Assembly: GCA_902561155.1 (NCBI GenBank)
Contig: CACEOY010000004.1
Location: 1-64,000, forward strand
DNA from: an uncultured Pelagibacteraceae bacterium
GTDB taxonomy: Bacteria; Pseudomonadota; Alphaproteobacteria; Pelagibacterales; Pelagibacteraceae
Direction: 5' to 3'
DNA length: 64,000 nucleotides
Part shown: positions 8,284-50,615 of the stretch, piece by piece
How positions within the stretch are numbered: the stretch's first letter is position 1
Layout of the letters: every line of letters starts with the position of its first letter
Notes under the pieces: generated by a model
Told to the model about the DNA's origin: nothing
The model's database searches: none
Seen by the model: the letters and a program-made list of their open reading frames with translations, nothing else
Translations under genes and position numbers: made by a program

Positions 8284-8831
8284 TCTGTTGGAATTGTGCT
8301 TAGCACGTTAAATTTTTTGTCTGTAATTACTATTTCTCCTGAACTAGGAACTGCATCAGTAATAGCAGTAATTATACTGTAATGAGTTATTAAAATTAAG
8401 TTGCCACCATCGCCGTCCCAATTATTAATAAATGTTCGAAGCTGCTTAAGTTGTTTGGGTTCATTTTTTGCAAATGATGACTGGAAGGTTGAATTTAAAG
8501 CAGAAAATTCGAAATAATTTTTAAATGCGTATTTTGCAGTATCTTTACATCTACACCATTGACTACTTAAAACTTTATCTACAGGAATTTTATTTTTTTT
8601 AAATAGTTTACCTATAGCTTTCGATTGTTCAATCCCAACCTTATTTAAGTTTCTTTGTGTCTTACAATCATTTATTTTAAATCCCGGAGGATCTCCGCCT
8701 CCTGGAGCTAGTGCGTGCCTAATTAATATTATTTTATCCCCTTCTTTTGCTTCGGCCCATAAATCCTTAGCAACTAGACTTTGAAAATTTAATAGTTGAG
8801 AGAATATTAATAAGTAAAAAATCTTTTTCAT
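8280..8831 (-). CDS. Exported histidine phosphatase superfamily protein
   Basis: A 183-residue protein with an N-terminal signal sequence (about residues 1-21, ending LVA-K). The catalytic motif is R38-H39-A in ILIRHALAPGG, where the usual third residue is G. A second catalytic histidine is in LILITHYSII. Cysteines in WCRC and NDC could form disulfides in the periplasm. It probably removes phosphate from a periplasmic substrate, which cannot be named. Its ATG overlaps the msrB stop as ATGA, making cysE-msrB-phosphatase a coupled unit. Confidence 0.82.
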   Translation of the reverse strand: MKKIFYLLIFSQLLNFQSLVAKDLWAEAKEGDKIILIRHALAPGGGDPPGFKINDCKTQRNLNKVGIEQSKAIGKLFKKNKIPVDKVLSSQWCRCKDTAKYAFKNYFEFSALNSTFQSSFAKNEPKQLKQLRTFINNWDGDGGNLILITHYSIITAITDAVPSSGEIVITDKKFNVLSTIPTD

Positions 8832-9205
8832 TCTTTAGGTTTGAAAACTAAACATGTTCCATTATTACAATATCTTTTACCAGTAGGTTTTGGTCCATCT
8901 TCAAATAAATGTCCATGGTGTCCTTTACAGTTTTTACAGTGGTATTCAGTTCTTGGATAACCAATTAGATTGTCAGTTTTTGTTTCAAATACATCAGGAA
9001 GAGATTTAAAAAATGATGGCCATCCAGTTCCACTGTCAAATTTCATGCCAGAGTCAAATAGTTTTATACCACAACCAGCGCAATGATAAGCGCCTTCTCT
9101 TTTTTCATTATTTAATGGACTCGATCCTGGAGGTTCCGTGCCTTCTTGTTTTAAAATATAATTTTGTTCTGGAGTTAAATTGGCGTTCCAATCTTTATTT
9201 TTCAT
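8828..9205 (-). CDS. msrB: Peptide-methionine (R)-S-oxide reductase MsrB
   Basis: Repairs the R-sulfoxide of methionine in proteins. I chose the ATG at 9205 (125 residues, [14 protein letters not shown]) because it is where family members begin and overlaps the end of cysE by only 11 bases; a longer reading frame from 9256 would lie mostly inside cysE. Zinc ligands are C42, C45, C90 and C93 in HCAGC and [20 protein letters not shown] and the catalytic C113 in RYCNN are intact. An extra cysteine, C118, follows close behind. No signal peptide, so it is cytoplasmic. It is coupled to the downstream phosphatase by ATGA. Confidence 0.93.
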
Positions 9206-9773
9206 CTTTAACTTTATCATCGACACCATAAGGTTTAAACGTGCCTTTGTTTCCAACTTTTATTTCTTTAGCAGGTATACCGATCACAGTTGCATTTTCT
9301 TTAACATCATTAACCACAACTGCATTAGCAGCAACTCTAGAATTATTTCCAATTTTAACGGGTCCTAAAATTTGAGCGCCTGAACCTATTACAACATCAT
9401 TTCCAATTGAAGGATGTCTTTTTTCATGTCTTTGCCTTTCGCTGTCGATACTAGGGGATATACCTCCTAAAGTAACCGCATGATAAATTGTTACGTTGTT
9501 ACCTATTTCTGAAGTTTCTCCTATTACAACTCCCATTCCATGATCTATGAATAAATTTTTTCCAATTTTTGCTCCAGGATGAATTTCTATTCCTGTAAAA
9601 AATCTAGTTGTCTGAGAAATAATTCTGGCAATTAAATCAAATCCTGCAATGAAGAAAAAATTTGCTATTTTATGAAAAAATACAGCTTTCACACCTGGGT
9701 AAGTGAGAATGATACTCACTAAAGATTTTGCCGCAGGATCTCTAGATTTTATAGATTCTAAATAATCGATCAT
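9195..9773 (-). CDS. cysE: Serine O-acetyltransferase CysE
   Basis: Transfers acetyl from acetyl-CoA to serine, the first step of cysteine synthesis. The 192-residue protein has a left-handed beta-helix of hexapeptide repeats from about residue 62 to 165, with catalytic residues D77-H78 in [17 protein letters not shown] and H98 in YHAVTLGG. It is the short, EpsC-like form without the long N-terminal helical domain of the enterobacterial enzyme. It leads a three-gene minus-strand unit with msrB and the phosphatase. Confidence 0.93.
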
Positions 9774-9832
9774 AGTTATGTATATAATGACTACTTGAAA
9801 AATTTAAAGAATTATTTATAAAGTCACAAATT

Positions 9833-10234
9833 ATGAGTAAACCATTTCACTTAGCTATACCAGCAGGTAATTTAGACACTGCAATTGACTTCTATAAAAA
9901 CGTTCTCGGATGTAAATTAGGTAATGGAGAAAAAGACAAGTGGATTGATGTTGATTTTTGGGGCAATGAACTTACTCTTCACAAAACTGAAACTAAGCTT
10001 CCAAGAGAGAGACATGACGTAGATATGGGAAAAGTTCCAGTGCCTCATTTTGGAGTTCATTTAAATACAGAAGTATTCAATAAGATTAAAAAAAATATAG
10101 AACAACACGATAAAGTAAATTATCTTGATAATCCTTACACTAGGTTTAAGGGTCAAAAAGAAGAGCAAGAAACATTTTTTATAGAAGACCCTCACGGTAA
10201 CGTTTTAGAGCTTAAAACGTTAAAGAATAATTAA
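9833..10234 (+). CDS. VOC (glyoxalase/bleomycin resistance) superfamily protein
   Basis: A 133-residue protein with two paired beta-alpha-beta-beta-beta motifs typical of the vicinal oxygen chelate fold. Likely metal ligands are H6 in PFHLAIP, a histidine in VPHFGVHL and the glutamate in GNVLELK. The region FYKNVLGC is the common family helix. Members include glyoxalases, dioxygenases and resistance proteins; the exact reaction cannot be told. Its stop abuts the stop of the converging trypsin-like protease gene with no gap. Confidence 0.85.
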   Translation: MSKPFHLAIPAGNLDTAIDFYKNVLGCKLGNGEKDKWIDVDFWGNELTLHKTETKLPRERHDVDMGKVPVPHFGVHLNTEVFNKIKKNIEQHDKVNYLDNPYTRFKGQKEEQETFFIEDPHGNVLELKTLKNN

Positions 10235-11446
10235 TTATCCAATTTTTTTAAATTTATCAGGTTTGCCATCTCCATTTGTATCAATGCCCGATGCATCAGG
10301 TTTTCCATCAAAATTTGAGTCAACGTACCAAATATCTATCGTGCCATTTTCACCTTTATCAATAGCGATAATATCTGGTTTACCATCTCCATTGGTGTCT
10401 TTTCCTATCATGTCAGGTTTTCCGTTATGATCTGAGTCTTTTAAAACTAAATCAATTTTTCCATCACCATTTTTATCTATGTAAAAGGTATCTGGCTTAC
10501 CGTCATTATTTGTGTCAATTTTCTTTGCAACTTTTTTGCTTACTTTTGGTTTAATTTTTTCTGGCTCTTTTTTTAAAGAGGTTGATGAAAGATTATTAAT
10601 AAATTTAAGAACTTCTAAAGAAGTTACCGCAAAGTTAAGGTTCTCTCCTTTGGACTTAAAAGAGTTTACTCCAATTAACTTTCCATCATTATTTAATAAA
10701 GGCCCCCCAGAATTTCCTGTGCTTATCGGTGTCTGGGTCTGAATTATATTTGCAGTATGTTTTGTATCTTTATATCTCCATTTAAAATTTTCTCTTACTT
10801 GGCTCACATAACCTTTTGAATAAGTCCATGAAAAATTATTTGGATGTCCAATTGCATGAACATCGGACCCGACTTCAGGAAGAGAGTTGCCCAATGGTAT
10901 CTCGTTAACTCTATCTGGTAACACTCCATTAATTTTTAAAAGTGCTAAATCTTTTGTTGCATCGTATCCAATTACTGTAGCAGGATACACATCGCTTTTA
11001 CTTGGCTCTTGGCCTTGAAATTTTATTACAACCCCAACATTATTAGCTCCTTGAATAACGTGCCAATTAGTTATTACAGCTCCAAGTTTTTTATTTATTA
11101 TTGATCCAGAGCCGTGAGCTTTTAATTTAGTATTAACAACTAATACAACGCTATCTGAAAAACTTTTATAAATATTTGTAGAAATTAATCCTCTAGTTTT
11201 AGGTGATTTATTTTTTGTTTTATTTAAAATTTCAAGAGCTCCAATTGGCATAGAATCTTTATCTAAATCAATTAGATTTTCATCAACTTCAATATCTCCA
11301 ATTTTTGACCCTCCTCTAGTAAGGTTTTTTGAGAAATCTTCTTTAAATAATGAAATTTCTTTTTTATCTGCGTATGATAAACTTTGAAAAAAAAGGCCGA
11401 AAATAAAAATGACACTTATTAAAAAATTTGTTTTAGTATTTTTCAT
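10235..11446 (-). CDS. Exported trypsin-like serine protease with seven calcium-type repeats
   Basis: A 403-residue exported protease. Residues 1-26 form a signal peptide ending SYA. The S1 domain (about 90-285) carries the triad H129 (ITNWHV), D166 (KDLALL) and S246 (TGNSGGPLL). A lysine-rich linker (about 292-310) leads to seven tandem 13-residue units starting at D311, D324, D337, D350, D363, D376 and D389, each of the form D-x-N-x-D-G-x-x-D, as in thrombospondin type 3 or EF-hand-like calcium loops. There is no PDZ domain, unlike DegP. Its first 13 codons overlap, head-to-head, the signal peptide codons of the CHAT gene; a GATAAT -10-like element lies just upstream inside that gene. Substrate unknown; a functional link to the CHAT protein is inferred from position. 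Confidence 0.88.
   Translation of the reverse strand: MKNTKTNFLISVIFIFGLFFQSLSYADKKEISLFKEDFSKNLTRGGSKIGDIEVDENLIDLDKDSMPIGALEILNKTKNKSPKTRGLISTNIYKSFSDSVVLVVNTKLKAHGSGSIINKKLGAVITNWHVIQGANNVGVVIKFQGQEPSKSDVYPATVIGYDATKDLALLKINGVLPDRVNEIPLGNSLPEVGSDVHAIGHPNNFSWTYSKGYVSQVRENFKWRYKDTKHTANIIQTQTPISTGNSGGPLLNNDGKLIGVNSFKSKGENLNFAVTSLEVLKFINNLSSTSLKKEPEKIKPKVSKKVAKKIDTNNDGKPDTFYIDKNGDGKIDLVLKDSDHNGKPDMIGKDTNGDGKPDIIAIDKGENGTIDIWYVDSNFDGKPDASGIDTNGDGKPDKFKKIG
10238..10516 (-). repeat. Seven in-frame 39-bp repeats coding calcium-type loops
   Basis: The 3' end of the trypsin-like protease gene is seven units of exactly 13 codons. Four units read DTNGDGKPD or DTNNDGKPD and the others diverge at 1-4 positions (DKNGDGKID, DSDHNGKPD, DKGENGTID, DSNFDGKPD). 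The aspartates at positions 1, 3 or 5 and 9 match calcium ligands in EF-hand-like loops. Unit five is the weakest. The exact 13-residue spacing suggests a continuous rod or solenoid rather than paired EF-hands. Confidence 0.9.
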
Positions 11447-14400
11447 AGGCTTGATATTATCTACTTTTGATACTAATTCAAACGCTTCTATATTTAAATT
11501 TAAATTCGAAGAACTAGAAAAAGCCCAAAAACTATATCCTTCTGACCCAAAAGGGGCTCACGAAATATTAGATAAATTAATAATACATTATGAAAAAAAA
11601 CCTCCTAAAGATTTTCCTTGGTTAGCATACGCATATAGCGATAAAGCTAATTGGTTACGTGATGAAGGAAAAAATGAGGAGTCTTTAGAATTGCGTATTA
11701 AGTCCTGCAAACATCATCAAAAAAAATATAGAAAGCAGAAGGTAAATGATGGTGAAGGCAATCTATTATTTTGTTATTATATGCTTAGTTTAGCTTATGA
11801 AGAGCTTAAATTTTTTAAAGAAAGTATTGAAACTTCGACTAAAGCAATAAAAATTTTTGAAAAATATAAAAATTTTCAGGTTAATAAACATAATGGTTTA
11901 ACAGAGTTTAATTATCAACTTTTTCAAAGAGCTGTGGTTTATGAAAAAACATTTCAATATGATAATTCTATTAATGATTTTGAAAAATTATTTGAACTTA
12001 TAAAAAACCCTAATAGAGAAAATCAAAGAGAAGCCGACAATTATATACGTGCCGCAAGAAGTCTTTCAGCTATATATGGAAAAAAAGGTGATAGTAAAAA
12101 TGAATTTAAATATAAAAAAATTTATTATGACTCGGTATACAAATTTGCTAACTCAGATCCATATAGATTAGCTTCAGCAAATGTTACAATGGGAAATTAT
12201 TTTAATAGTCAAAAAAATTCTGAAGTAGCTATTAATCATTTTAATGAGGCTATAAAAATTGCAAATAGTACTCTTCAAGACTCAAGTCTTAATTATGAAG
12301 ATAGATCAGTAATACTTAATAGCAAAATGACAGCCATGGTGGGAAGAAACACTGCTTTTGATCGTCAAGATCCTGATAACGAGAGAACAAAAAAAATAGC
12401 ATTTGAACTCATTGAACTTAACAAGCAATTTAAATTAATAGATAAAAGAACAGATGGTTATGAATATTTAGTAGATTATTATAACAAAAATGAAGATTAC
12501 GATAATGTAAAAGAAACTTATAAAAAAATATATCAATTACATGACAAAAAACTTGTTGAAGCAAAAAAGACAAAAAGAGTTCATTTAAGAGGTATTTTAG
12601 AAGGTATTGTAATTGCGGATATTAGACGAACAAAATTTGAAGAGGCTTTTAATTATATAGCGCTCAATAAGTTCCAAGAAAGTATTAAAATAGCTAATGA
12701 ATTAAAAAAATATGAAACACCTGACGAAGGAGCGGCTGAAATATATGACAAAGTCAGTTTATTAAACCTTTATGGAAGGGCTTATGGCGGCTTAGCAGAT
12801 CATAAAAAGTCTATAACATATTATTTACAGGCATTAGATATTTTAAACAAATCTTTTGAAAAAGATTATCTGCAGGAAGAAACAATCCTTAATAATTTAG
12901 CTTTGGCATATAACACTGTTGGAGAAAGAGATCTTGCAATAAAATATATGACTGAGGTCGGAAAAAGAATAGAGAAAAGAAATACACTTGATATCTATAA
13001 AGTTGATACTTATTCAAATTTAGCTGCAATAATTCCAGATAGAAAACTTGCTAAAAATTACGCGCTCAAAGCTTATAATATTCTCCTAAACAGCAAAGAG
13101 GAGTTTAGAAATGATTTAAGTTTCATCAACGCGGCAACTATTCTTGCTGAATTTTATTTTGCAGAAAAAAATTACTCTGAAGCAGAAAAAATAATTCTGT
13201 CTGGATACGAATATGCGAAAGTAAATTATCCAAAAAATATTTTGTCTTTCAGTAATTATCTTTATTTGTATGGCGATATAGCTGCAGTGAAAAATAAAGA
13301 TTATGATACTTGTATTAAGTACTCTAAAATAATTATTGATGAATTAGCAAAACTAGATGCTTCATCATCAAGCTTAGTTAAACCTCGTATACTTAAATGG
13401 TCTTGCCATTCTTCTAAAGGTGAAAAGGAAGCTGCTTTCGATGAACTATACAAAGCTATAATGATAATAATTCAAGAATTTGACAGAAATAACTTCGAAC
13501 TAAATTTTGAAGTAAATAAACTTGTAAAAGATAACAGAATTTTCATCGAAAATTTTATATCTAGAATTATTAATTATTCCCACAAAGAAAAAAATATACT
13601 CCAAAAATATAAAAATGTTAATTTTTTAGATTTAGCTTTTGGTTTGCAGCAAATTGTTAAAACAAATGAACTAAATGTAAATCTTTCTCAAGCTATATCG
13701 AGAGAATTATCAAGTGATGACAAAATTTCTAATAAGATTAAAAAATATTCATCGCTTCTTATAGAGCGACAAGGACTTCTCAAATTAGCTTCTCTTGATG
13801 ATAGAAATATTAAAAAAAACAACACCAAACTTTCGAAAGTAAACAAAGATATCGTTATATTAAAAAAACAAATTTTAAATGATTATCCAGAGTTTAAGAA
13901 AAATTTTGCTAATCAAATGGTTATAGGGAGTGTATTATCCCCTTCTATGCCTGAGGATGAGGCATTGATACAATTTTCAATCGGAAAATTTTTCTCTTTT
14001 GCATCAGTTATTACTAAAGAAGATTATACAATTACACATCTGCAGAGAAGAAATCCAATTTCAAATCCCCAGCGAAAATGGAAACTCACAACTCATAGTG
14101 AAGTTTCGAGGTTAGTTGAAGATTTAAGAAAAAACTTGCAACTTGTTGGTGGCAAACCAGTAAAATTCGATCTAGAAAAAAGTAGTTTATTGTTTGATAT
14201 GCTTTTTACAGAAAATATCTTTAATATTTTAAAAGATAAAAAGAAGTTAGTAATTGTTCCAGATGGTTCGCTTTATGGCTTACCATTTGAGCTTTTATAC
14301 GAAAAGAAAAATAAAAAATGGCTAGTTGAAAAATACTCTATAACAGTAAGTCCTTCTTCATATAGCTACGCTGCTTTAAATCTAGACAAAAAAATACCTT

Positions 14401-15140
14401 ATAACTCTAAAAATAGTTTTGCAGGATTTGGTAATCCAAAAATCCAGGATGTAAAATTAGCTAAAAACCCTGATATTGAAAAGGTAGAATTGGAATTTTC
14501 AAGAGTGTTTACAAGAGGTGGATCGGTAAATTTAAAATATTTAAAGATGTTTCCTGAATTACCCGAAACTGAAGATGAGTTAAGAAAAATATCTACCAAG
14601 TTTGATAGCAATTCTAAACTTTATCTAAGAGAGGAATTTAATGAAAAACAAATTAAATCAATCGATTTCAAAAAATTCAAAGTTGTTAGTTTCGCAACAC
14701 ATGCATTAGTAGTTGGGGAAATAGAGGGTTTAGCAGAACCAGCGATTGTTTTAAGTGTTCCTAATAAAGCGACTAAAGAAAATGACGGATTATTGACAGC
14801 TTCTGAAATAGTAAAATTAAATATGGGCACTGACCTAATTATTCTATCAGCTTGTAATACAGCATCATCAAGTGGAAAAACTAACAGTGAAGCTTTATCT
14901 GGTTTAGCAAATTCATTTTTCTATTCGGGTGCAAAGAGTTTACTAGTAACTCACTGGTCAATAATTTCAGATACTTCAGTCCAATTAATTTCCGATACTT
15001 TTGATTTTTTAGATGAAAGCAATGGCGATCTGTCTATTGCATTAACTAAAGCCAAAATAAAAATGTTGAAAAACAGCGAAACTCAACATCCTATTTATTG
15101 GGCGCCATATACACTGGTAGGTAGATCAAATATTTATTAA
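11409..15140 (+). CDS. Exported TPR-CHAT caspase-like protein
   Basis: A 1243-residue protein with a signal peptide (about residues 1-26, MTLIKKFVLVFFIGLIL then SNA). Residues ~30-620 are helical with TPR-like pairs, for example around LNLYGRAYGGLADHKKSI and ILNNLALAYNTVGERDLAI; a less structured helical stretch runs to ~850. The C-terminal CHAT domain includes VPDGSLYGLPFELLYE at 950, the catalytic H1098 in SFATHALV and C1149 in ILSACNTA, and LLVTHWSIISD, all typical of clan CD CHAT proteases. It is therefore probably a periplasmic or envelope peptidase with a TPR sensor. It begins 38 bases inside the divergent protease gene; AAAAGG at 11391-11396 may serve as ribosome site and TATGAT at 11373-11378 as a -10 box. 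Confidence 0.9.
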   Translation: MTLIKKFVLVFFIGLILSTFDTNSNASIFKFKFEELEKAQKLYPSDPKGAHEILDKLIIHYEKKPPKDFPWLAYAYSDKANWLRDEGKNEESLELRIKSCKHHQKKYRKQKVNDGEGNLLFCYYMLSLAYEELKFFKESIETSTKAIKIFEKYKNFQVNKHNGLTEFNYQLFQRAVVYEKTFQYDNSINDFEKLFELIKNPNRENQREADNYIRAARSLSAIYGKKGDSKNEFKYKKIYYDSVYKFANSDPYRLASANVTMGNYFNSQKNSEVAINHFNEAIKIANSTLQDSSLNYEDRSVILNSKMTAMVGRNTAFDRQDPDNERTKKIAFELIELNKQFKLIDKRTDGYEYLVDYYNKNEDYDNVKETYKKIYQLHDKKLVEAKKTKRVHLRGILEGIVIADIRRTKFEEAFNYIALNKFQESIKIANELKKYETPDEGAAEIYDKVSLLNLYGRAYGGLADHKKSITYYLQALDILNKSFEKDYLQEETILNNLALAYNTVGERDLAIKYMTEVGKRIEKRNTLDIYKVDTYSNLAAIIPDRKLAKNYALKAYNILLNSKEEFRNDLSFINAATILAEFYFAEKNYSEAEKIILSGYEYAKVNYPKNILSFSNYLYLYGDIAAVKNKDYDTCIKYSKIIIDELAKLDASSSSLVKPRILKWSCHSSKGEKEAAFDELYKAIMIIIQEFDRNNFELNFEVNKLVKDNRIFIENFISRIINYSHKEKNILQKYKNVNFLDLAFGLQQIVKTNELNVNLSQAISRELSSDDKISNKIKKYSSLLIERQGLLKLASLDDRNIKKNNTKLSKVNKDIVILKKQILNDYPEFKKNFANQMVIGSVLSPSMPEDEALIQFSIGKFFSFASVITKEDYTITHLQRRNPISNPQRKWKLTTHSEVSRLVEDLRKNLQLVGGKPVKFDLEKSSLLFDMLFTENIFNILKDKKKLVIVPDGSLYGLPFELLYEKKNKKWLVEKYSITVSPSSYSYAALNLDKKIPYNSKNSFAGFGNPKIQDVKLAKNPDIEKVELEFSRVFTRGGSVNLKYLKMFPELPETEDELRKISTKFDSNSKLYLREEFNEKQIKSIDFKKFKVVSFATHALVVGEIEGLAEPAIVLSVPNKATKENDGLLTASEIVKLNMGTDLIILSACNTASSSGKTNSEALSGLANSFFYSGAKSLLVTHWSIISDTSVQLISDTFDFLDESNGDLSIALTKAKIKMLKNSETQHPIYWAPYTLVGRSNIY

Positions 15141-15146
15141 TTGCTA

Positions 15147-15176
15147 TTGACTTAATTACAGTAAATCTAATATAGT
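15147..15176 (+). promoter_or_regulatory. Predicted sigma-70 promoter of metY
   Basis: TTGACT (15147-15152) and TATAGT (15171-15176) are separated by 18 bases. The expected start, about 6-7 bases later, falls right at the 5' end of the SAM-II riboswitch, so position and motif support each other. It lies 7 bases after the CHAT gene stop codon. Confidence 0.7.
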
Positions 15177-15181
15177 CCTTA

Positions 15182-15233
15182 TAGCGCTGAGTTAAAACAA
15201 ATTGCGGGCGCTTAACAAATCCAGCTAAAGCGT
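15182..15233 (+). promoter_or_regulatory. SAM-II riboswitch
   Basis: The sequence follows the SAM-II pattern: stem AGCGC (15183-15187) pairing with GCGCT (15208-15212), the loop beginning TGAGTTAA, an ATTGC segment, and the 3' tail AACAAATCCAGCTAAAG that forms the pseudoknot in this class. SAM-II binds S-adenosylmethionine. Its tail CTAAAGCG (15225-15232) is perfectly complementary to CGCTTTAG (15249-15256) in the following terminator, giving an alternative antiterminator stem. SAM binding would occupy the tail and free the terminator, switching metY off at transcription. Confidence 0.9.
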
Positions 15234-15243
15234 CAAGTCTCAG

Positions 15244-15272
15244 ACCACCGCTTTAGTCGGTGGTTTTTTTTT
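15244..15272 (+). terminator. Riboswitch-controlled intrinsic terminator
   Basis: A perfect 7-bp stem ACCACCG/CGGTGGT (15244-15250 with 15258-15264) with loop CTTTAGT is followed by an uninterrupted run of T to 15272. It lies between the SAM-II and SAM-V aptamers and shares eight bases with the SAM-II tail, so it is the expression platform of SAM-II. Confidence 0.93.
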
Positions 15273-15282
15273 AGAAAAATAA

Positions 15283-15341
15283 AACCAGGTATTTGAACTG
15301 TATTGTACACCTGGCTTTTTGCCGAAGTACTAAAAAGGGAG
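15283..15341 (+). promoter_or_regulatory. SAM-V riboswitch covering the metY ribosome site
   Basis: The stem CCAGGT (15285-15290) pairs with ACCTGG (15309-15314) around the loop ATTTGAACTGTATTGTAC, and the 3' part AAGTACTAAAAAGGGAG contains the ribosome binding site GGGAG (15337-15341). These elements match the SAM-V class described in marine bacteria, including Pelagibacter. A GTAC/GTAC pairing (15305-15308 with 15327-15330) is a likely part of the pseudoknot. SAM binding would hide the ribosome site, giving a second, translational layer of metY control. Confidence 0.88.
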
Positions 15342-15347
15342 AAAAAA

Positions 15348-16643
15348 ATGACAAAAAAAATTAAACATCCAGAAACAATAGGTTTACATGGAGGTGACTA
15401 TCGAAGCGATCCAGCAACTACGTCGGTAGCCGTACCTATTTATCAAACAACTTCTTATCAATTTAAAGATGCAAAAACTGCCGCAAATTTATTTGGTTTA
15501 AAAGAATTTGGAAATATTTACACAAGAATTAATAATCCCACTTGTGACGTCTTAGAAAAAAGAGTTGCAGCGCTTGAGGGTGGAATGGCTGCGGTGGCAG
15601 TTGGTTCTGGTCAAGCTGCTTCTGCTTTTTGCGTTCAGAATGTTGCTCAAGCAGGAGATAATATAGTTTCATCTACGGATTTATATGGAGGAACAGTTAA
15701 TTTATTTAAAAATACTTTAAGAATGCAAGGTATAGAAGTTAGATTTGCAGATCCATCTGATCCAAAAAACTTTGAAAAACTTACTGATGAAAAAACTAGA
15801 GCTTACTATGGAGAGTCTTGTCCAAATCCTTATTTAAGAGTATTTCCAATTAAAGAAGTTGCTGATATTGGAAAAAAACATGGTGTTCCACTTATAATTG
15901 ATAACACTGCAGCGCCAGTAATTTGTAAACCATTAGAGCACGGTGCAGCAGTTGTTATGCATTCGTTAACTAAATATATCGCAGGTCATGGTACTTCTAT
16001 TGGAGGAATAATTGTTGATGGAGGAACTTTTGATTGGGTGAAAGATCCCAAGAGACAACCTTTGTACAATACTCCTGATCCAAGTTACAATGGTGCAATC
16101 TGGGGGAGAGACGTTCCTAAGATGACTGGAGCAAATGTTGCTTTTGCTGTAAGAGCTCGTGTCGTGCTTTTACGTGACCTAGGTGCTCCCTTGTCACCTT
16201 TCAATGCATTCCAAATTATTCAAGGTTTGGAAACTGTAGCTTTGAGAATGAAACAACATTGCGCTAATGCGGAGAAAGTTGTTAAGTTTTTAGAATCACA
16301 AAAAAAAGTTAAAAATGTAATCTATCCAACTAATCACCAGGGTGAGATAAGAGAAAGAGCAAAAAGATATATGAATGGTGGTTATGGTTCTTTAGTGGGT
16401 ATGGATTTAGGATCTAAAGAAGCCGGAGCAAAGTTTATTGATAATTTAAAGTTACTTTATCATGTGGCTAATATCGGAGATGCTAGAAGTTTAGCGATCC
16501 ATCCAGCATCTACAACGCATAGTCAGCTTAATGACAAACAACTTCAAGAAGCCGGGGTAACACCAGGGTACGTCAGATTGTCCATAGGTATAGAGCATCC
16601 TGACGATATTATTGCTGATATTGAGCAAGCTTTAGCTGCATAA
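15348..16643 (+). CDS. metY: O-acetylhomoserine sulfhydrylase MetY
   Basis: PLP enzyme that makes homocysteine, or methionine if methanethiol is the thiol, from O-acetylhomoserine. I start it at the ATG at 15348 (431 residues, MTKKIKHPETIGLHGG), 6 bases after the GGGAG ribosome site; an in-frame TTG at 15303 would translate the SAM-V aptamer and is rejected. The PLP lysine is K209 in HSLTKYIAGHGTS; IYTRINNPTCDVLEKR and SIGIEHPDDI are typical of the Cys/Met enzyme family. Length fits MetY (about 430). In SAR11 cells, which depend on reduced sulfur, use of methanethiol from DMSP is plausible but is inference. Regulated by the tandem SAM riboswitches upstream. Confidence 0.94.
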   Translation: MTKKIKHPETIGLHGGDYRSDPATTSVAVPIYQTTSYQFKDAKTAANLFGLKEFGNIYTRINNPTCDVLEKRVAALEGGMAAVAVGSGQAASAFCVQNVAQAGDNIVSSTDLYGGTVNLFKNTLRMQGIEVRFADPSDPKNFEKLTDEKTRAYYGESCPNPYLRVFPIKEVADIGKKHGVPLIIDNTAAPVICKPLEHGAAVVMHSLTKYIAGHGTSIGGIIVDGGTFDWVKDPKRQPLYNTPDPSYNGAIWGRDVPKMTGANVAFAVRARVVLLRDLGAPLSPFNAFQIIQGLETVALRMKQHCANAEKVVKFLESQKKVKNVIYPTNHQGEIRERAKRYMNGGYGSLVGMDLGSKEAGAKFIDNLKLLYHVANIGDARSLAIHPASTTHSQLNDKQLQEAGVTPGYVRLSIGIEHPDDIIADIEQALAA

Positions 16644-49532: not shown

Positions 49533-49546
49533 TTTGAATAAAGTTA

Positions 49547-49576
49547 TTGAATCTCTAAAAAAGAGTTTTATATTAT
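49547..49576 (+). promoter_or_regulatory. Predicted promoter of the tmRNA gene
   Basis: TTGAAT (49547-49552) and TATTAT (49571-49576) are 18 bases apart, placing the start near 49583, at a small hairpin GTTGG-TTTT-CCAAC (49581-49594) just ahead of the acceptor piece. It lies in the narrow gap shared with the divergent thyX start. Confidence 0.5.
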
Positions 49577-49582
49577 AAATGT

Positions 49583-49840
49583 TGGTTTTCCAACTATGAC
49601 GATAAACGAATTTCGTAATAAACATTGCGGACGTGGGGGCAGTACCCACCACCTCCACCATTTACAACTTGAGGGGGTGAATTAGGCTCGACGGGTGTCT
49701 AAAAGTTTTTCTTTCGTTCGAGATAGTTCCGACGTAACGGACTAATTATAAATGCAAATAATAAATTTGCACTTGCTGCTTAATTAACTTGTTAATTAAG
49801 TGAACGGGGTTTGGGGCACCTGGCAACAGAACGCCCCTTA
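49583..49840 (+). ncRNA. ssrA: tmRNA, circularly permuted two-piece form
   Basis: Rescues stalled ribosomes. The acceptor piece comes first: GCGGACGTGGG GGCAGTA CCCAC (T arm, 49627-49649) and ACCTCC-A-CCA ending at 49660. A 12-base spacer follows, then the coding piece begins GGGGGTGAATTAGGCTCGAC at 49673. GGGGGT (49673-49678) pairs with ACCTCC (49651-49656) and leaves the G3-U70 wobble that marks alanine tRNA-like molecules. P2 is supported by TTCGTT and ATAG of the coding piece pairing with AACGAA and CTAT near 49594-49610. The tag frame and a 9-bp hairpin carrying its stop follow, then a GGGGC-CTGGCAACAG-GCCCC structure ends the RNA near 49838. Permuted ssrA is the known alphaproteobacterial form. 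The exact 5' end is uncertain. Confidence 0.95.
49754..49783 (+). other. tmRNA tag frame, ANNKFALAA stop
   Basis: The resume codon GCA at 49754 opens the frame GCA AAT AAT AAA TTT GCA, then CTT GCT GCT TAA, giving the degradation tag ANNKFALAA after the charged alanine. The ALAA end is the conserved protease-targeting signal. The stop codon lies inside a perfect 9-bp hairpin, CTTAATTAA-CTTG-TTAATTAAG (49779-49800). Confidence 0.93.
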
Positions 49841-49841
49841 A

Positions 49842-50615
49842 ATGAAAATGAAAAATATATTAAAAAAAATTTTAGAAATATTTGGATTTAAACTTTTAAG
49901 AATGAAGGAAAGAAATAAACATACTACCTTCGGTATAATAAATCATTTGTTAAATATAATAACTAAATCAGGTAAGTATTCTCATTTAACAATTTTTGAT
50001 ATTGGTGGGAATGTGGGTGAATTTAGCAAAGAACTTGAAACACATTTAATCAAAGAAAAAAATGAGTATAAATTTTTTATTTTTGAACCAAATCCTAATT
50101 TAATAAAAGAAATAAAACAAAAGAAAATTAAAAATTCAAATATTTTTAATTATGGTATTGGTGATAAAAAAGAAGAAAAACTTTTTAAAATCCACGACCA
50201 CCACGAAAAATCATCATTTTTAAATATTGATAAAAATTATTTTAAAAATGAAAAAAAATATAATATTTATGATTTTAAGTGTAAAATCGAAACATTAGAT
50301 AGTTTTTCAAACGAGAATAAGATAGATCATATAAATTTTTTAAAAATAGATACTCAGGGTTACAATGCTAAAGTTTTGGAGGGTGCTAAAAATTTAATAA
50401 AAAACAACGCTATTGATTTTATTTATACTGAAATTACGATTGGACCCAAATATGAATTAAACGAAACTTTTTTTGATTTTGAGAAAATTTTAAATGAAAA
50501 TTACGATCTTTACGGTATTGATGTAGGTCAATATTATCTTGAGGTGATTTCAAGAAGATCGATGGATCAGTTGAACCTAGATCTATTTTATGTAAATAAA
50601 AAAATGATTCAATAA
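49842..50615 (+). CDS. FkbM-family methyltransferase
   Basis: A 257-residue SAM-dependent methyltransferase. The SAM motif is FDIGGNVGEFSKEL at 52-65, and INFLKIDTQGYNAKVLEGA is the FkbM core. Members methylate sugars and polysaccharide ends, often in surface polymer islands. It is lysine- and asparagine-rich and very AT-rich. Its ATG (49842, or 49848) is 2-3 bases after the tmRNA, with no room for a promoter or ribosome site; Met21 at 49902 is an alternative start. A location next to tmRNA suggests an accessory, strain-variable gene. Confidence 0.88.
   Translation: MKMKNILKKILEIFGFKLLRMKERNKHTTFGIINHLLNIITKSGKYSHLTIFDIGGNVGEFSKELETHLIKEKNEYKFFIFEPNPNLIKEIKQKKIKNSNIFNYGIGDKKEEKLFKIHDHHEKSSFLNIDKNYFKNEKKYNIYDFKCKIETLDSFSNENKIDHINFLKIDTQGYNAKVLEGAKNLIKNNAIDFIYTEITIGPKYELNETFFDFEKILNENYDLYGIDVGQYYLEVISRRSMDQLNLDLFYVNKKMIQ

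Follow-up and report, generated by a model that had tools for sequence, protein, structure and literature searches.

The window considered here, a stretch of 64,000 nucleotides from an uncultured Pelagibacteraceae bacterium whose assembly comprises 967 kb in 20 contigs, carries two genes for proteases with signal-type N-termini, a DegS-like trypsin and a TPR-CHAT protein with a caspase fold, which are read outward from the same spot. The features of this locus are as follows.

10237..15145, no strand: unit of two genes that is either wholly present or wholly missing, compared with the empty site of G016 and other relatives (blastn)
10235..11446, minus strand: exported DegS-like trypsin of 403 aa with C-terminal calcium-type repeats (Pfam Trypsin_2, 4e-27; Foldseek)
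11369..11446, minus strand: trypsin signal peptide, aa 1-26, MKNTKTNFLISVIFIFGLFFQSLSYA (hydropathy)
11309..11320, minus strand: TRGG at aa 43-46 of the trypsin pro-segment, recurring in the CHAT partner (motif scan)
11189..11200, minus strand: K-x-[RK]-G step at the edge of the protease domain, aa 83-86, a candidate maturation site (26 homologues)
10583..11179, minus strand: trypsin protease domain, aa 90-288, with H129/D166/S246 (Pfam, homologue alignment, AlphaFold)
10244..10516, minus strand: seven repeats of 13 aa each, aa 311-401, with the pattern D-x-[ND]-x-[ND]-G-x-x-D (sequence and AlphaFold model)
11409..11446, no strand: 38 bp shared by the signal-peptide coding ends of the two genes, which lie on opposite strands (ORF calls; recurs in L023 and L024)
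11409..15140, plus strand: exported TPR-CHAT protease of 1243 aa (Pfam CHAT, 7e-50, and TPR)
11409..11486, plus strand: signal peptide of the CHAT protein, aa 1-26, MTLIKKFVLVFFIGLILSTFDTNSNA (hydropathy)
11547..13478, plus strand: TPR or helical superhelix, about aa 47-690 (Pfam TPR; helices with pLDDT mostly 70-90)
14184..15125, plus strand: CHAT caspase-fold domain, aa 926-1239 (Pfam)
14511..14522, plus strand: TRGG at aa 1035-1038, within the CHAT domain (motif scan)
14700..14702, plus strand: catalytic His1098 (invariant in alignment A2)
14853..14855, plus strand: catalytic Cys1149 in LSACNTA (invariant in alignment A2)

In the AlphaFold model of the trypsin, a Deg-type protease domain predicted with confidence (aa 90-288) is joined by a disordered linker (289-304) to a solenoid (306-403) with one strand per 13 residues. 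The best Foldseek matches of the protease domain, and its nearest solved structures, are DegS without the PDZ domain. The trypsin fold and Deg-type His-Asp-Ser triad that characterise HtrA/Deg proteases were recovered by Pfam, by the TIGR02037 region, by alignment and by Foldseek; of the one or more C-terminal PDZ domains that also belong to this family none was found in the Pfam scan of the window trypsin, in which the repeats take their place. Searches with PADLOC and NCBIfam returned no equivalog.

The CHAT domain of the second protein scores 170.6 bits against PF12770, well above the curated cut-off of 24. The mean pLDDT of its AlphaFold model is 67, with the CHAT-domain part poorly modelled. 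Among its Foldseek matches separase is on top and the TPR-CHAT protein of Craspase is included, and the sequence gave no match at E 0.01 when compared with PDB chains. The original prediction held that both catalytic sets are complete, which is borne out by the alignments: H129/D166/S246 is invariant across 26 trypsin homologues, and H1098/C1149, the His-Cys dyad expected of CHAT peptidases, in 5 homologues (aligned with a fragment numbering of +44). The seven calcium-type repeats it described are likewise all present, as consecutive 13-aa units from DTNNDGKPDTFYI to DTNGDGKPDKFKK.

These repeats follow the pattern D-x-[ND]-x-[ND]-G-x-x-D, which is of the calcium-binding-loop type, and by their sequence they look calcium-binding. 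Seawater contains about 10 mM Ca2+, so that the repeats would be saturated outside the cytoplasm. For this reason we rejected gating by calcium as the likely switch; calcium would probably drive folding after export instead. The proposal of an exported, calcium-gated two-protease unit is thus retained in its first part, with calcium as a folding or export cue in place of the gate.

Signal-type hydrophobic N-termini, called with a hydropathy heuristic rather than SignalP, are found in both window proteins and in nearly all full-length homologues. The 38-base overlap on opposite strands predicted at 11409-11446 proved exact to the base (ORFs 10235-11446, minus, and 11409-15140, plus). Head-to-head overlaps were also observed in L023 (38 bp) and L024 (41 bp), both at unrelated genomic sites, and the trypsins of these two loci form a supported clade with the window trypsin. 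It had been reasoned that a start elsewhere, lacking a signal peptide, would speak against export; the starts with signal peptides are instead conserved in homologous pairs.

Several relatives lack both genes. When L223 was compared with the window by blastn, positions 8332-10236 joined directly to 15146-16642, and the same break occurs in L222, L224, L225, L227 and L228. In G016 the end of a glyoxalase gene (10236) abuts 15146, just before the SAM-V riboswitch region. As the boundaries 10236 and 15146 match the gene pair, exactly these two genes have been gained or lost, and because these boundaries coincide with the two genes and the overlap is repeated in L023 and L024, the overlap is not a matter of chance. 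A close relative, L022 (AG-343-D23), shares 97% DNA identity. The sporadic distribution and the clean insertion or deletion could also be expected of a pair that merely hitch-hikes in a variable genomic island. This explanation is strongly contradicted and we regard it as very improbable, given that the island is exactly these two genes and that the pairing recurs at different sites, with C14 layouts, and in Scalindua and Sulfurimonas.

The riboswitch mentioned above is a SAM-V element (Rfam RF01826) at window positions 15278-15344 (plus strand), upstream of a gene for a PLP enzyme of Cys/Met metabolism; just before it, at about 15183-15240, lies a sequence that resembles a second, SAM-II-like element but scores below the Rfam threshold. 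A permuted (two-piece) alphaproteobacterial tmRNA was found at 49543-49874 of the window.

The pairing of the trypsin with a caspase-fold gene is real. The genus was surveyed in 169 genomes, which are incomplete assemblies, so that absences are to be read as soft. Caspase-fold genes were found in 16 of them (CHAT in 2, C14 in 14), and the long-type trypsin, called at more than 530 bits with the next best match at 113, in 14. In 13 of these 14 genomes a CHAT or C14 gene adjoins the trypsin or lies no more than 2.6 kb away (overlap of 13 genomes; hypergeometric P=8e-16 for 169 genomes), and in the fourteenth, G118, whose protease coordinates agree with the end of the L022 contig, the contig ends at the overlap itself. 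Conversely, all 17 caspase-fold genes of the genus have an exported trypsin within 4 kb. In the other three C14 genomes (G009, G060 and G173) this is a different exported trypsin, divergent from C14 at a distance of 0.6-1.3 kb, and the single one of this type that was scanned contains TPRs. Independent occurrence of the two genes across relatives, which would have counted against the original prediction, was not seen in the genus.

The best matches of the protease come from Pelagibacteraceae (SAR11), mostly uncultured isolates. In a named genome collection, CHAT (3 loci) or C14 (18 loci) stands beside the trypsin in all 21 Pelagibacteraceae loci, counting those in which the N-terminal end of the trypsin is not cut by the contig. 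Outside SAR11, the trypsin is also paired in Scalindua, with CHAT, and in Sulfurimonas, with C14; it is unpaired in two alphaproteobacterial MAGs, and one Bacteroidetes contig that carries it ends inside a TPR gene.

A general association of trypsins with CHAT proteins was considered and rejected, since in other Alphaproteobacteria 40 CHAT loci were examined over about 12 kb and none had a trypsin there. Searches of IMG/VR with the CHAT protein found no relatives. With the trypsin, two viral contigs (L020 and L021) were obtained, each with only a distant trypsin that has a lipoprotein-like N-terminus and lies in a conserved neighbourhood devoid of a caspase-fold gene.

The arrangement of the pair varies. 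In the C14 layout, C14 is followed by the trypsin, mostly with a 4-bp overlap, after which come a small conserved gene and one resembling pentameric ligand-gated ion channels (pLGIC-like). In the MORN-C14 layout the trypsin is convergent with MORN-C14 and ECF sigma-like genes adjoin, and in the PDZ-CHAT layout the order is pLGIC-like gene, trypsin, PDZ-CHAT. In G047 and L044 the PDZ domain is carried by the CHAT partner, where DegS has it on the protease itself. The trypsin tree requires at least three changes of the partner fold label, of which the starred branches alone force just one. Since gene order and partner fold drift while the pairing persists, the pairing is probably under selection. 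Conserved pairing, as originally predicted, is therefore upheld by 13 of 14 genomes, and a divergent overlap as the fixed layout is not: with several layouts and either CHAT or C14 as the partner, it is the pairing and not the overlap that is invariant.

Other genes recur around these loci. pLGIC-like exported genes, with weak Pfam support (Neur_chan_memb at the cut-off), lie beside trypsin-caspase pairs in 21 SAR11 loci (e.g. L016:11098-12567, L015:6113-7624). A small conserved family of about 155 aa (MAKIRKSASIES...), which has no Pfam match, is found at L030:2393-2860 (minus strand) and 21 other loci, as a rule separating the trypsin from the channel-like gene. Small exported proteins encoded in tandem (DDIRDFEIEGMSIGDSLLDY...) account for 65 genes across 18 loci; they surround C14-trypsin loci (L016, L025, L047, L143 and others) and are possible substrates or immunity proteins. 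Fusions of MORN repeats with C14 (L029:9212-11311, minus strand; L019:5664-7929, plus strand) adjoin ECF sigma-like and anti-sigma-like genes. In Scalindua (L036:5083-7224, plus strand) the trypsin is a fusion with DUF4384 and a zinc finger of the zf-HC2 anti-sigma type, and is followed by a TPR-CHAT protein with a zf-HC2 match.

Short motifs shared between the partners bear on how they might work together. Shared 5-mers are only twofold enriched overall, which is why only specific motifs were used as evidence. The motif [WY]I[TK][KR]K occurs in 19 of 35 trypsins and 18 of 33 C14 proteins, while the 480 other ORFs of the neighbourhoods contained no instance (Fisher 5e-39, kinship ignored), and among 554 ORFs it is confined to the two partner proteins. 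In trypsins it is placed in the linker before the calcium repeats; in C14 it frequently follows directly on the signal peptide and recurs ahead of the caspase domain (L016: aa 310 of the trypsin, aa 26 and 88 of C14). The trypsin and CHAT protein of the window itself lack WITKK-type motifs. Before the protease domain the trypsins share K-x-[RK]-G within an otherwise variable pro-segment, with R/K85 in 26 of 26 and G86 in 25 of 26 homologues, distant MAG sequences included. Among 696 ORFs, TRGG is found in the pro-segment of the head-to-head trypsins and in the CHAT domain of their partners, and otherwise in one other paired trypsin. As a class-wide check found RG, though not TRGG, to be common at this position in many unrelated CHATs, the CHAT half of the TRGG match is weak evidence.

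The [WY]I[TK][KR]K and K-x-[RK]-G signals suggest that the trypsin and the caspase-fold protein may act on each other, although motif sharing could mean binding instead of cutting. That one protease of the pair cleaves the other seems to us somewhat the better bet. Characterised CHAT proteases do not all cleave after Arg or Lys. Orthocaspases cut after basic residues (PMC6426788). That the caspase-fold protein would act first is a tentative reading, to which we give a little less than even weight.

The order could also be reversed, with a DegS-like trypsin that senses envelope damage and activates the caspase-fold protease as executioner. In favour of this, the protease domain has its closest match in DegS, an envelope-stress sensor; known bacterial pairs include cases in which a trypsin-like protease activates a pro-enzyme (PMC12799240), and WITKK-type motifs also stand at the N-terminus of C14, as a pro-site would. 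However, the trypsin has no DegS PDZ sensor, PDZ or TPR sensor domains are carried by the caspase-fold partner, and the basic-Gly site would suit a basic-specific caspase-fold enzyme more than a DegS-type pocket, which makes the reversed order unlikely. We judge it equally unlikely that both are co-regulated but independent proteases, which digest or survey envelope or external proteins and do not cleave each other. Divergent overlapping starts can give co-regulation, and neighbours resembling ECF sigma and anti-sigma factors together with PrsW suggest regulated envelope proteolysis; yet partner-specific shared motifs and a basic-Gly site in the pro-segment would not be expected, nor would a pairing that persists across several gene orders while the partner fold changes.

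We thus favour, with slightly more than even confidence, a mobile module of two genes whose exported protease products act on one another in SAR11, either in the periplasm or at the cell surface. As the partners are kept together across species despite the swap of caspase type, they probably switch each other on in the envelope. The TPR-CHAT protein would probably be a regulated sensor protease, whose TPR superhelix (PDZ domains in sister systems) may detect a ligand or an envelope protein that has been damaged. The trypsin, DegS-like in its protease domain, would probably start out as a precursor that has a pro-segment and a repeat tail folded by calcium. The CHAT partner would cut this precursor at basic-Gly sites (TRGG, aa 43-46, and KTR|G, aa 83-86), and the cut trypsin would be the working enzyme.

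As for the purpose of the pair, conflict or phage defence is possible at best. The pair occurs sporadically, behaves like a cassette and has exchanged its caspase-fold member; in these respects it resembles conflict systems (PMC7159879, PMC8195603, PMC12799240), but those have been described as intracellular. The ECF sigma-like and PrsW genes at some loci suggest envelope stress, and envelope-stress proteolysis as the purpose is a slightly more doubtful proposal. Similarly doubtful is the broadest version, a new class of extracytoplasmic two-protease cascade in free-living bacteria, in which a common calcium-folded trypsin would be matured in the periplasm by swappable caspase-fold sensors (TPR-CHAT, PDZ-CHAT, C14, MORN-C14), the whole serving SAR11 as an immune or cell-death switch of the envelope. 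SAR11 are among the most abundant bacteria of the ocean. The pair offers a small testable gene set with predicted cut sites.

An exported trypsin and caspase-fold pair of this kind was not found described in the open-access full-text literature, and the systems nearest to it each share only part of its properties. With the TPR-CHAT protein of Craspase (Csx29), which is among the Foldseek matches, the window protein shares a TPR superhelix, a C-terminal CHAT domain and a His-Cys dyad. Unlike Csx29, it is exported and has a second protease instead of a CRISPR partner: no cas genes that would link it to Cas7-11 (gRAMP) were recognised in the neighbouring ORFs of the window, and where a cytosolic relative of Csx29 would be expected, the protein has a signal-type N-terminus and no PDB match at E 0.01. 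The trypsin resembles DegS/HtrA in its protease domain (TIGR02037 region; Foldseek DegS lacking PDZ) but differs by the missing PDZ, by its pro-segment and seven calcium-type repeats, and by being genetically tied to a caspase-fold gene. The caspase-nuclease (canu) and trypsin-nuclease pairs (PMC12799240) follow the same two-gene logic, a protease activating a partner pro-enzyme; there, however, the canu caspase gene stands beside a gated MBL-type nuclease, whereas the unit described here has two genes, both for exported proteases, and no nuclease. In alphaproteobacterial fusions of trypsin, pseudo-orthocaspase (QC) and DUF4384 (PMC6426788), trypsin and caspase fold are linked in one chain, but their caspase domains have no catalytic dyad, whereas the window has separate genes with intact catalytic sites; DUF4384 is also part of the trypsin of Scalindua and adjoins the type-E trypsin. 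Bacterial gasdermin operons (PMC9612521) likewise bring caspase-like (C14/CHAT) and trypsin genes together in conflict operons, but no gasdermin was recognised among the genes examined here and the window proteins are exported. The caspase-like systems known from bacteria are for the most part found in the cytosol and act upon nucleases, pores or CRISPR targets; the pair in SAR11, if our reading is true, would represent a bacterial counterpart of protease cascades that run outside cells, for example complement or Toll-Spätzle processing.
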